From Ruminiclostridium sp. (GTDB taxonomy: Bacteria > Bacillota > Clostridia > Oscillospirales > Ruminococcaceae): 58,078 nt of DNA. The position numbers were made by a program, and so were the translations under genes. The notes under the pieces were generated by a model. It saw nothing but the letters and a program-made list of their open reading frames with translations. It was not told where the DNA came from and made no database searches. The first letter of the stretch is position 1. Each line of letters opens with the position of its first letter. Shown in pieces: positions 4,409-58,078 of this stretch. The stretch spans positions 1 to 58,078 of the forward strand of contig JAGBMA010000231.1 of NCBI GenBank assembly GCA_017635095.1. The letters are read 5' to 3'.

Positions 4409-4544
4409 ATGAAGGGTGGGGAGACTTGACGCAGCAGTTGGCGCAAGCAGCTCTTTTTCTCTCAAATGGGTTTTTAGAGGTTCCCTGAAGTGAGCTGTTT
4501 TCGCTGCATATCCGATATCCGCTCACCAACGCCGGATCAGCCCG

Positions 4545-14337: not shown

Positions 14338-14619
14338 GCCTGCGTTCCGGCGCGTCTGCGGACGCGCGCGGGACTCTCTCCCCTCGACCCCTCTCTCCTT
14401 TCAAAAAACTATTGCAGCTCCGCCCAGAAGGGAGAAGGAAACAGGGATTTCGAAGGTTCCTCTTATGCGCGCATCGTGCGCGCTCTTGGGAACCTTCTTT
14501 ACTACGTCATGTAGTTTCGAAGGTTCCTCTTATGCGCGCATCGTGCACGCTCTGGGGAACCTTCTTTACTGCGTCCTGCAGATTTATGCCGCCTATTTTT
14601 TTGTAAGGAAAAGAAAACT
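14338..14619. repeat. Repeat-rich spacer with a 67 bp tandem hairpin duplication
   Basis: The first part (14341-14420) holds fragments of the dispersed repeat family: a GCGCGTCTGCGGACGCGC hairpin and CTCTCTCCCCTCGACCCC. Then a 67 bp unit occurs twice, at 14448-14514 and 14515-14580. Each unit has GAAGGTTCC paired with GGAACCTTC around a CG-rich loop (ATGCGCGCATCGTGC). No gene is present. Confidence 0.8.
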
Positions 14620-37423: not shown

Positions 37424-37873
37424 ATGAAGATCTCTTCAAAAGTCGAATGCGGCATCATCTCCCTCGTGGATATATGTATTTATTCCAACAACAGTGTCGT
37501 TACGGTAATAAATATCTCGGCACGGCAGAATATCTCCGCAAAGTACCTCGAACAGATACTGCCCCAGCTCAGGCAAGCCGACATAATCAGGAGCGTGAAA
37601 GGCGCAAAAGGCGGCTATACCCTTACCCGCCCCGCGGAGCAGATAACGCTCCGGGACGTGATAAACGCGCTTGACAGCACAGTCCTCGGAGATGTGCGTT
37701 TCAGCGGCAAGGAAGATTCCATCATGACCGACGCGCTCTCGAAATGTCTGTGGAGCAAGATGACCGCTTACCTCCGGAACTTCACGGAGAATGTCACGCT
37801 CCGAGACCTCGCCGACAGCTATGACAAGCTCTCCTCCGAGACTACGTCCGCAGAACCCATGTATTATATATAG
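37424..37873 (+). CDS. Rrf2 family transcriptional regulator (CymR/IscR-like)
   Basis: The 149-residue winged-helix regulator starts MKISSKVECGIISLVDIC and has the recognition region ISAKYLEQILPQLRQADII and the wing VKGAKGGYTLTRP. It lacks the three-cysteine cluster motif of IscR, so direct Fe-S sensing is unlikely. The CymR type, which senses cysteine status with cysteine synthase, is closer. It is divergent from metY and lies between metY and the suf operon, both sulfur-using. Its stop codon is formed at the edge of an inserted repeat. Confidence 0.9.
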   Translation: MKISSKVECGIISLVDICIYSNNSVVTVINISARQNISAKYLEQILPQLRQADIIRSVKGAKGGYTLTRPAEQITLRDVINALDSTVLGDVRFSGKEDSIMTDALSKCLWSKMTAYLRNFTENVTLRDLADSYDKLSSETTSAEPMYYI

Positions 37874-38031
37874 GGTACCTCTAAAAACCGCTTTGAAAAG
37901 AGAAAATGAGATAGCTGCGTCGGATACAAGGAAAGCCGACGAAGCCGGGCTGACGCCCGGTTAGGAGGTTTGACGCAGTAGACGGCGTGGATAGCTCTTT
38001 TTCTCTCAAATTGGGTTTTTAGAGGTTCCCT
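37872..38031. mobile_element. 160 bp MITE-like element
   Basis: The ends AGGGTACCTCTAAAAACC and GGGTTTTTAGAGGTTCCCT are inverted. The similarity extends inward for ~45 bp (AAGAGAAAATGAGATAGCT against its mirror AGCTCTTTTTCTCTC). No coding capacity is seen. The right arm closely matches 4420-4486 beside cimA. The flanks suggest a short ATA or TA target duplication. The left tip supplies the AG of the TAG stop of the Rrf2 gene. Confidence 0.8.
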
Positions 38032-38047
38032 ATAAAATTTCCTACCC

Positions 38048-42848: not shown

Positions 42849-42877
42849 TTGCAATTTTACGGGTTTTATGCTATAAT
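42849..42877 (+). promoter_or_regulatory. Promoter of the cloverleaf RNA and HAD-fusion gene
   Basis: TTGCAA (42849-42854), 17 bp, TATAAT (42872-42877). Transcription would start at about 42884, within or just before the outer stem of the cloverleaf. Confidence 0.75.
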
Positions 42878-42880
42878 TCA

Positions 42881-42986
42881 TGTGTCCTCAATAACTGCCT
42901 TTTGGCAGTTATTGACTGAAAATCTGCAAAACAGATTTTCAGATGTTGTTTAAATGCTCCTGCGGTGCATTTAAACAACGGACACA
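42881..42986 (+). ncRNA. Cloverleaf-like structured element, copy A
   Basis: The outer stem is TGTGTCC/GGACACA (42881-42887, 42980-42986). Three perfect hairpins lie inside it: CAATAACTGCC/GGCAGTTATTG (42889-42914), CTGAAAATCTG/CAGATTTTCAG (42916-42942), and GTTGTTTAAATGC/GCATTTAAACAAC (42945-42979) with a CCTGCGG loop. Copy B at 57845-57950 keeps all stems with compensatory changes. Here it is the 5' leader of the HAD-fusion gene. Whether it works as RNA or as a DNA element is open. Confidence 0.75.
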
Positions 42987-43027
42987 TTCCTTGTTGAGCA
43001 GACATTAATTCGGTAGGAGGAGGAGCA

Positions 43028-44593
43028 ATGACACTATATGTCAGCGATCTTGACGGGACGCTTCTTAGCGATGAGGGAAAGCTTAAACCGCGCACAGCGG
43101 ATATGCTCAACCGCTTTATAGACGGAGGCACGCTGTTTTCGTACTGTACAGCCCGCGGTCTTGCAACAGCCGGAGAGATAATGTCGGAGGTCAGGATAAA
43201 CGCTCCGGTGGTGCTCATGAACGGCGTATATATCTATGATCCCGTGACCGGGGAATATCCCGTCCGCAATATGTTCGGTGAGCGCCAGTGTGAACTGCTG
43301 CGGAACGTGGTGACCGAAAACGGCGAGACGCCTATGATATTTGCATTTATAGACGGCAGGGAGCGCGTGAGCTTTGTGAAAGACGCCGCAAATCTGAAAA
43401 AGCATCTTTCCCGCCGTAAGGGCGACAGCCGCCGGAGACCGCTTGCGGACAATTCGGGACTTTTCGACGGCGAGATGTTCTATGCCGCATTCATAGATCC
43501 GGTGAACAAGTCGGCACTTGAGACTGTATTCACCGAGGAGAACGGCTTCCGCACAGCCTGCTACACCGACACATATCCGCCGCACCAGCTCTGGTTCGAG
43601 GTGTTCCCTGCAAACGCGGGCAAGGCGAATGCAGTCCGCCGTCTCAAAGAACTCACCGGCGCAGACGAGATCGTATGCTTTGGCGACAACGCGAACGACC
43701 TGCCGATGTTCGGCGCTTCTGACAGATGTTACGCTGTCGGGAACGCGATACCCGAAGTGAAAGCTGCGGCAAACGGCGTGATAGGCACGAATGAGCATTA
43801 CGGAGTCCCGGAATTCATCGAAAAAGAGATCTTCCCGGTTTTCCCCTACACTCCGGCGGACAGATGTGCACCCGATGCAGAACGGTTCACCGAAGCCGTA
43901 AGCAAGGCTCTGTCCCGTGAAAGGACAACTATAGGAACACTCAACGAAAAAGCCATACACAATGCGCTCAAATGCTATTACTGCAACGAAGCGGATCACG
44001 AAGCGAAGATCGGCGGATTTTACGCGGACGGTGCGGGCGAAAACGGCATTTTCGAGATACAGAGCGCAAACTTCACATATCTTGCAAAAAAGCTGTCGCA
44101 GATGCTCCGGGTGAGCCATGTGACAGTGGTTTACCCATACGAAAAAAGATCTCACATCATCTCTGTTAATGAAAGCACAGGCGAGGTGATGTCCGAGACT
44201 ACGCGCACCGACAACTCTTTCTCGAAGCTGTTTCTGGAGCTGTACCGGCTCAAGGCATTCCTTACCAATCCCAATCTCACGATAAGGATAGCGTTGCTTT
44301 CTGTTGACAAGAAGATCTGCTACAAGAACGAGAAGCGCATCCGCCGCAAGGGAATGAAAAAGGAAAAGGTGCCGACCGGCTTCATACAAGAGATCGTTCT
44401 TGAAAGCTCTTCGGACTATGCGATATTTCTGCCGGACGGACTTCCCGGCACATTCACGAAAGCCGAGCTTCAGAAACTCTGCCGCACAACAGACGCCGGC
44501 ATCATGCTTTCCGTCCTCGAATTTGTCGGCGCAGTTCACCGCGTCGGCAAACGCGGCAACGCTATTCTGTGGGGCATAGCCCCCACAGAATAG
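43028..44593 (+). CDS. Cof-type HAD phosphatase fused to a nuclease-like C-terminal domain
   Basis: The 521-residue protein has two parts. Residues 1 to ~275 are a Cof-type HAD hydrolase: SDLDGTLLSDEG at residues 6-17, CTARGLATAG, and FGDNANDLPMFGASDRCYAV. Residues ~295-521 form a separate domain beginning GTLNEKAIHNALKCYY. It has IGGFYADG and FEIQSANF spaced like the D...ExQ core of PD-(D/E)XK nucleases, then VTVVYPYEK and SSSDYAIFLPDGLPGTF. I recall stand-alone relatives of this second domain in clostridia but know no function. AGGAGGAGG precedes the ATG. Confidence 0.85.
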   Translation: MTLYVSDLDGTLLSDEGKLKPRTADMLNRFIDGGTLFSYCTARGLATAGEIMSEVRINAPVVLMNGVYIYDPVTGEYPVRNMFGERQCELLRNVVTENGETPMIFAFIDGRERVSFVKDAANLKKHLSRRKGDSRRRPLADNSGLFDGEMFYAAFIDPVNKSALETVFTEENGFRTACYTDTYPPHQLWFEVFPANAGKANAVRRLKELTGADEIVCFGDNANDLPMFGASDRCYAVGNAIPEVKAAANGVIGTNEHYGVPEFIEKEIFPVFPYTPADRCAPDAERFTEAVSKALSRERTTIGTLNEKAIHNALKCYYCNEADHEAKIGGFYADGAGENGIFEIQSANFTYLAKKLSQMLRVSHVTVVYPYEKRSHIISVNESTGEVMSETTRTDNSFSKLFLELYRLKAFLTNPNLTIRIALLSVDKKICYKNEKRIRRKGMKKEKVPTGFIQEIVLESSSDYAIFLPDGLPGTFTKAELQKLCRTTDAGIMLSVLEFVGAVHRVGKRGNAILWGIAPTE

Positions 44594-44689: not shown

Positions 44690-45025
44690 GGCAGGGCAAG
44701 CCCTGCACCCGAAGCTGTCGCGATTTACCCGATAGTTTATACATAACAAAAAGATACAGCAGACCCGATTGTTACGAGTCTGCTGTTTTTATATGTTGTG
44801 CAGATACTTTCCCGCTCAGCGCGGCAGCTATTAAAGTTTTTTTGGAAAGAGAGAGGGGTCGAGGGGAGAGAGAAAAGCCTTTTTTTACAAAAAAAGGTTT
44901 TCTCTCTCCCCCGCGGGGCGTGGGGCAGAGCCCCACACGCGCGTCCGCAGACGCGCCGAGGGTGCAGGGCAGAGCCCTGCCGGGGCGTGGGACGGAGCCT
45001 CACACGCGCGTCCGCAGACGCGCTG
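44690..45025. repeat. Dispersed palindromic repeat, copy 2
   Basis: It has the same order of modules as 1-290. Near 44690 it also has a flanking GCAGGGCAAGCCCTGC hairpin and CACCCGAAGCTGTCG that are shared with copy 3. Preceding 44594-44690 is GC-rich with GTGGGGCTCTGCCCCAC and CGGGGC hairpins and no gene. It lies between the ends of two convergent genes. Confidence 0.9.
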
Positions 45026-46819: not shown

Positions 46820-47125
46820 CGGTGCAGGGCTTTGCCCTGCACCCGCAGCGCGTCTGCGGACGCGCGTGGGGGGCGCTGCCCCACGCCCCGCGGGGGAGAG
46901 AGAAAACCTTTTTTTGGAAAAAAAGGCTTTTCTCTCTCCCCTCGACCCCTCTCTCTTTCCAAAAAAACTTTAGTAGCTGCCGCGCTGAGTGAGACAGTAT
47001 CTGCACAACATATAAAAACAGCAGACCCGATTGTTACGAGTCTGCTGTTTTTATATACTTTTATGATAACTGACGGGTAAGTCGCGGCAGCTTCGGGTGC
47101 AGGGCTTGCCCTGCCGCGGGACGGG
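46820..47125. repeat. Dispersed palindromic repeat, copy 3 (inverted)
   Basis: This is the reverse complement of the module order at 44690-45025, including the same flanking GCAGGGCTTGCCCTGC hairpin and CAGCTTCGGGTG. It lies directly after the zinc-ribbon gene stop and downstream of pnp. The rest to 47199 is GC-rich spacer without a gene. Confidence 0.9.
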
Positions 47126-57826: not shown

Positions 57827-57844
57827 TACCGTTTTGATAAATAA

Positions 57845-57950
57845 TGTGTCCTCAATAACTGCCTTTTGGCAGTTATTGCCTGAAAGTCTGTATAACAGAC
57901 TTTCAGATGTTGTTCCAATGAACCTGCGGCGCATTGGAACAACGGACACA
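57845..57950 (+). ncRNA. Cloverleaf-like structured element, copy B
   Basis: The outer stem TGTGTCC/GGACACA and first hairpin are the same as copy A. Hairpin 2 is CTGAAAGTCTG/CAGACTTTCAG and hairpin 3 is GTTGTTCCAATG/CATTGGAACAAC, again with a CCTGCGG loop. Changes relative to copy A are paired on both sides of the stems. No clear promoter precedes it on the plus strand. The conserved flank TTCCTTG follows both copies. Confidence 0.75.
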
Positions 57951-57988
57951 TTCCTTGATGTCAAGCTCATTTCGTCCTTCGGACGAAC

Positions 57989-58078
57989 AAAAGTGCAAGG
58001 AAAATCTTAAAATATATAAATTTTCCTTGCACTTTTGCAACCGTGAAAAGCCTTCAAGCTGCGCTATGAAGACTTTTC
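57989..58078. repeat. Palindromes at the right window edge
   Basis: AAAAGTGCAAGGAAAA and TTTTCCTTGCACTTTT form 16 bp perfect arms around an AT-rich loop (57989-58036). A second imperfect palindrome with GAAAAG and CTTTTC ends occupies 58045-58078 and may continue outside. TCGTCC/GGACGA lies just before them. Confidence 0.7.

Follow-up and report, generated by a model that had tools for sequence, protein, structure and literature searches.

Background

IS200/IS605-derived elements and REP/BIME repeats carry hairpins near their ends, have no coding capacity and are not known to duplicate their target, and the ISDol1 group of insertion sequences produces duplications of 6-7 bp. The repeat family described here resembles, as far as the excerpts of PMC2229807 and PMC10969869 go, bacterial MITEs such as Correia/NEMIS, ERIC, RUP and QMITE, which are short, non-coding and multicopy, with terminal inverted repeats, target duplication and a strong fold. 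It also resembles BOX elements of Streptococcus pneumoniae, which in the excerpted text of PMC3049150 are dispersed composites of modules that can be missing and which, like the present family, would fold if transcribed.

The window analysed here, a whole stretch of 58,078 nucleotides from Ruminiclostridium sp. (contig JAGBMA010000231.1), contains two copies of a cloverleaf sequence for which a first-pass annotation had offered two readings, a new regulatory RNA or a mobile DNA cloverleaf. Terminal repeats, target duplications, many copies and empty sites bear out the second reading and not the first. We conclude, with a probability of roughly 0.92, that the sequence belongs to a non-autonomous, MITE-like mobile DNA element, a twin cloverleaf of approximately 254 bp when complete; less surely, its stems may be kept mainly by homogenisation at the DNA level.

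Results and discussion

Structure of the two copies in the window

Copy A and copy B, with left cloverleaves at 42880-42987 and 57844-57951 on the forward strand, are 88% identical over 124 nt, and each left cloverleaf consists of a closing stem, ATGTGTCC/GGACACAT, followed by hairpins of 11, 11 and 12-13 bp. The closing stem is 8 bp long and not 7 bp as originally described; in copy A it pairs 42880-42887 with 42980-42987, and hairpins 1, 2 and 3 occupy 42889-42914, 42916-42942 and 42945-42979, as assigned by folding and by pair counts over 60 distinct sequences. Both copies exist and fold in the annotated form (z -12.6 for each; 0 of 200 dinucleotide shuffles as good), and their reverse strands fold as strongly (z -12.3 and -13.9). 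Such a strong fold favors a new structured regulatory RNA, either a leader or a small RNA, whose stems would be kept by selection on the transcript; against this, Rfam at the gathering score gave no family at either copy, and only two tRNAs in the whole window.

Copies A and B differ at 12 positions. Three double pair changes account for the compensatory changes reported in the annotation, all of which were recovered (in hairpin 2 an A-T pair has become G-C, and in hairpin 3 a T-A and an A-T pair have both become C-G), and of the other differences one unpairs a hairpin 3 pair in copy B and five fall at unpaired positions. The loop CCTGCGG, which had been called invariant, is the same in both copies, but many copies elsewhere in the family have CTTTCAG.

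The annotated coordinates located both copies, but the feature extends beyond them. Copy A (42880-43005) measures 126 bp and lacks the right domain of the element, its left cloverleaf being fused straight to the right end. It is bounded by the target duplication TAATTC at 42874-42879 and again at 43006-43011, its terminal inverted repeats (ATGTGTCCTCAAT versus ATGTCTGCTCAAC) are identical at 10 of 13 positions, and its right terminal repeat GAGCAGACAT (42996-43005) is the sole exact one in the window. Copy B (57844-58078) comprises the left cloverleaf and most of the right domain, where the contig end cuts it; the target sequence TAAATA lies to its left (57838-57843), and the right copy of the target would fall past the contig end.

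Other repeats were also observed in the window. A second family of approximately 240 bp, G+C-rich and with long palindromes, is present in three copies that are 94-95% alike (55-291, 44775-45011 and, inverted, 46824-47048). A third family (4415-4486 and 37869-38034), with ends like AGGGNACCTCTAAAAACC...GGTTTTTAGAGGTTCCCT, is perhaps another small inverted-repeat element, and a stretch resembling it comes after an element copy at another locus (L098). Two 67-bp tandem units at 14448-14581 resemble each other at 93%, and the arms AAGGTTCC and GGAACCTT are present in both.

The complete element and its copies

Copy A was used as a query against the genomes of 99 relatives, and matches were found in 14 genomes, all of one genus and including the window's own genome, G000. 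The matched loci showed that the element continues beyond the cloverleaf, which forms its left half; a complete copy of approximately 254 bp consists of two successive cloverleaves with three hairpins each, the right one closed by ATGTC..GCTCAT and ATGAGC..GACAT, between termini that are the inverted repeats ATGTGTCCTC and GAGCAGACAT. The complete copy folds with z -14.2 (RNA energies), and a diverged copy from G024 with z -15.6 (DNA energies).

In G000, the left-end scan returned 59 matches (28 forward and 31 reverse, solo palindromes being counted twice) and the right-end scan 50, compared with one in the control; the copy number in this genome is approximately 50 to 60. Left-end matches were obtained in 13 of the 14 genomes, which had been picked for already having hits. 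The two-ended copies comprise 84 distinct sequences, of which 26 have a length of exactly 254 bp and 44 fall within 240-262 bp; in these 44 full-length copies the longest open stretch, by a liberal count, is most commonly 64 amino acids, with 53-85 amino acids among the ten commonest values.

Some copies carry internal deletions, and some are mosaics. Short forms of 51-216 bp also bear exact duplications, and their junctions, in our reading, fall at short direct repeats; these forms may result from repeated deletions, perhaps after insertion, and do not thereby prove that the hairpins are dispensable. A 42-bp mini-element (L091, 694-735) retains the two ends, is flanked by TAATTA left and right, and has none of the left cloverleaf hairpins. 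Solo palindromes of approximately 44 bp, each formed by a pair of left ends (L104, 5098-5141; also L041, L107, L174 and L211), lack a matching duplication, often have TAAnnA outside each end, and are perhaps recombination products of inverted copies.

Target duplications and empty sites

Exact duplications flank 71 of 91 two-ended copies, 66 of them being 6 bp and five 7 bp long, and 20 copies have none; this count omits left-end matches without the target TAA (22 distinct, mostly evident chance matches), six tandem and four internal matches, and those preceded by fewer than 60 nt. When all two-ended matches are kept, the duplication is present in 72 of 97. The commonest targets are TAATTA, TAAATA, TAATAA and TAAGTA.

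Sites without the element were found in relatives. At the gene that follows copy A, four genomes (G023, G057, G058 and G033) have TTGCAA, 17 nt and TATAAT, then the gene, with no element between, and a fifth (G010) has TATAAT and then the gene, with the element absent. No complete cloverleaf is present in any of the 16 other loci compared at this gene, where the traces seen were an eroded left-end fragment, reversed and upstream of the promoter, in G033 and an 11-nt match to hairpin 1 in G047. Of 85 queries made of joined flanks, ten had hits spanning the junction, and six of these ten are element-free sites, one of which (L280) rests on 75 nt only; the other four, all from the nested locus L004, are other copies or the same place. 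Four of the six element-free alignments cross the insertion point and two cover part of it. All of these empty sites are comparisons between species, at approximately 70-87% identity, not between strains.

The alternative that recombination, rather than transposition, spread these palindromic repeats draws on the mosaic copies and on the solo palindromes that lack matching duplications. It is largely contradicted by the exact duplications of varied sequence in the 71 copies, and the targets in the empty sites are single-copy, so that we consider it extremely improbable.

Target sequence and relation to promoters

The gene downstream of copy A (43028-44593, forward strand), whose predicted 5' leader now holds the element, matched the Pfam family Hydrolase_3 (HAD type) over the 291 residues scanned. 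Its older promoter, found where the annotation had placed a predicted transcription start at copy A and a gene behind it, is predicted from the sequence and from the relatives to consist of TTGCAA at 42849-42854, a 17-nt spacer and TATAAT at 42872-42877. Judged from sequence, the insertion target of copy A is the -10 box of this pre-existing promoter.

Target preference was examined by comparing 153 distinct insertions at TAAnn[AC] with 2353 TAAnn[AC] sites of the examined DNA that carry no element and lie outside open frames, the coding-position filter having been applied to the unoccupied sites only and not to the insertions. TATAAT was present at 63 insertions (41%) and at 170 free sites (7.2%), an odds ratio of 9 (p 2e-28), which explains why copy A seems to begin at a transcription start. 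Promoter activity as the attractant was rejected, since a -35 hexamer with at least five of six matches was no commoner at used TATAAT sites (24/63) than at unused ones (59/170; p 0.65); promoters are struck because they contain the target sequence. The remaining 90 of the 153 insertion sites are not TATAAT, which argues against a regulatory RNA, and an in-frame TAA stop codon was the site of 9 of 104 evaluable insertions.

Co-directional next genes might also be taken to favor a regulatory RNA. After insertions at TATAAT with a -35 hexamer of at least four of six matches, the next gene was co-directional in 18 of 21 cases by one gene call, and in 13 of 19 when genes were called more strictly and sufficient room was demanded to the left and right; however, this orientation follows from insertion into promoters. 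Ten genes behind promoter-like insertions were scanned, and seven fell into different Pfam families while three had no Pfam match; together with the HAD hydrolase behind copy A, they show no consistent association with a gene family. The suggestion that the genes following the copies be compared accordingly led to different kinds of genes, and the gene adjoining copy B is divergent, with copy B standing before it.

Compensatory changes in the stems

Across the 60 distinct cloverleaf sequences, pairing holds in 94.6% of cells. Double changes were found in 20 of 43 pairs, a number attained in 1 of 500 shuffles (mean 15.9), and the covariation score was 0.290, compared with 0.122 in shuffles, both figures being inflated by the relatedness of the copies. 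These values, and a layout that is kept in diverged families, favor a structured RNA; further pair types, in contrast, were no more numerous than in shuffles (40 versus 39.5). Among 37 near-identical copies (of 52, the 15 with more than six differences being left out), the stems carry 62 changes in 86 columns and the unpaired positions 44 changes in 25. Selection on structure would give both this lower rate of change in the stems and the layout kept across diverged families.

The pairing itself marks neither strand as a selected transcript. Departures from pairing on the forward strand comprise 25 G-T and 57 A-C cells, G-U pairs in the 44 full copies number 111 on the forward and 140 on the reverse strand, and covariation of the kind that tolerates G-U pairs on one strand was not found. 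In addition, loops are inverted in some copies, with AAAA for TTTT in L185 and CTGAAAG for CTTTCAG in L022 and L238, and one copy (L099) differs from its nearest common variant by two double changes and no single ones. Inverted loops and multiple compensatory changes are footprints of template switching, and compensated changes combined with loop inversions are called rare, in the excerpt of PMC8794818. The absence of a G-U bias and the inverted loops speak for a DNA-level cause of the compensation.

Conservation of the stems, which holds for the double changes between the two window copies, is not general, since hairpin 3 is partly broken in L067, L070, L085, L086, L100 and L104. Mosaics with such a hairpin 3, like the lower rate of change in the stems, speak against the DNA-level cause. 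Both kinds of observation that the annotation had named as refuting, copies with broken stems and sites empty of the element, were thus encountered. A regulatory RNA is set aside here because there is no gene association, no strand signal and a set of empty sites in which relatives have the promoter and the gene without the element; together with the target duplications, these make it very unlikely.

Distribution of the family and search for a mobilising enzyme

A covariance model gave matches in 21 of 71 genomes of the genus, with at least 53 matches each in G000 and G033, near the ceiling of 54 scored candidates; those in G028 are a G+C-rich palindrome and probably not family members. In a sample across the order, searched at E 1e-4 with stricter filters and with 13 candidates per genome scored, matches came from 2 of 295 genomes, both belonging to the window's genus, the only one matched of the 148 genera sampled. 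Among the named-contig matches listed, the titles were of the kind uncultured Clostridia bacterium, Ruminiclostridium, Ruminococcus and Ruminococcaceae, and rumen or omasum appeared in several of them. A search of plasmids, phages and viral contigs gave no match.

Diverged families within the genus keep the hairpin order with other stem sequences. Those of G024 and G018 have exact 6-bp duplications (TAATTC in the former; TATATA and TTATTA in the latter), the G025 copy has flanks TAATTA versus CAATTA, and a copy in G043 stops within hairpin 3.

Searches of G000 and G010 for exact pairs of ends found no enzyme gene between them, nor did a looser end-pair search among the matches listed, and no mobilising enzyme gene was found in 799 kb of G010 or in the collected loci. 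Thirty left ends that lack a right end were inspected by eye: they belong to truncated copies, to solo palindromes or to copies whose right end is unusual, and none runs into a transposase. A candidate autonomous copy in G000 (contig C2), with two right ends 3.3 kb apart, was rejected, as one of these ends belongs to a 42-bp mini-element, the other stands isolated, and the genes between them are ordinary. PF01609 was matched once in G000, by a sequence that contains an internal stop, and had no match in G010, G033 or G058. The mobilising enzyme may belong to another family, may lie in unread parts of the genomes or may have been lost.

It has also to be considered that the element moved as a folded single strand, of DNA or RNA, for which the twin cloverleaf was required. 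The hairpin order kept in the G024, G025 and G018 families despite other stem sequences is in keeping with this, as is the absence of a PF01609 match from three of the four carrier genomes searched. The 6-7-bp duplications, however, suggest ordinary staggered cutting, and the short forms bear exact duplications, although their shortening may postdate insertion; movement as a folded strand is, on balance, unlikely. A related proposal, that this is an undescribed type of element whose machinery reads the folded twin cloverleaf, is aimed at TATAAT, leaves the -10 box intact and uses an enzyme that belongs to none of the usual transposase families, is in our judgement quite unlikely. No description of the element family was found in the portions of the literature that were searched.

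Proposed mode of insertion and significance

For the MITE-like mobile element, the following course of events is proposed. An enzyme encoded elsewhere would recognise the ends and make cuts staggered by 6 bp at TAAnnA, and, as -10 boxes carry sequences of this type, some copies would land exactly on them. The left copy of the duplication would retain the -10 box, and the element would become the first part of a predicted 5' leader. The near-perfect stems may, with less certainty, come mainly from homogenisation of the arms by template switching in palindromes and from the spread of whole variants, in which case selection at the RNA level would probably not be their main keeper.

The family shows that a mobile element can mimic a structured RNA, with its strong fold, compensatory changes and start at a promoter, and palindromes together with a TATAAT target can give all three features. 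It also offers a natural experiment, in which one hairpin leader stands behind the promoters of unrelated genes within one genus, so that what a structured leader does to expression could be measured. Through its inverted loops and the matched changes in its arms, template switching in bacterial palindromes can be put to the test.

Comparison with known systems

Hairpins at the ends and a lack of coding capacity are shared with IS200/IS605 elements and with REP/BIME, from which the present family is separated by its duplicated target (71 of 91 copies). The length of the duplication is like that of the ISDol1 group, a likeness in length alone and a lead only. Unlike BOX elements, with which it was compared by description in the excerpted text of PMC3049150, the family loses whole hairpins in its short copies and is without tandem boxB arrays. 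Unlike the MITEs as described in the excerpts of PMC2229807 and PMC10969869, it has no partner transposase among the sequences searched, a TATAAT-type target with a 6-7-bp duplication, and a pair of cloverleaf domains that diverged families retain. For a MITE, the twin-cloverleaf layout is unusual.
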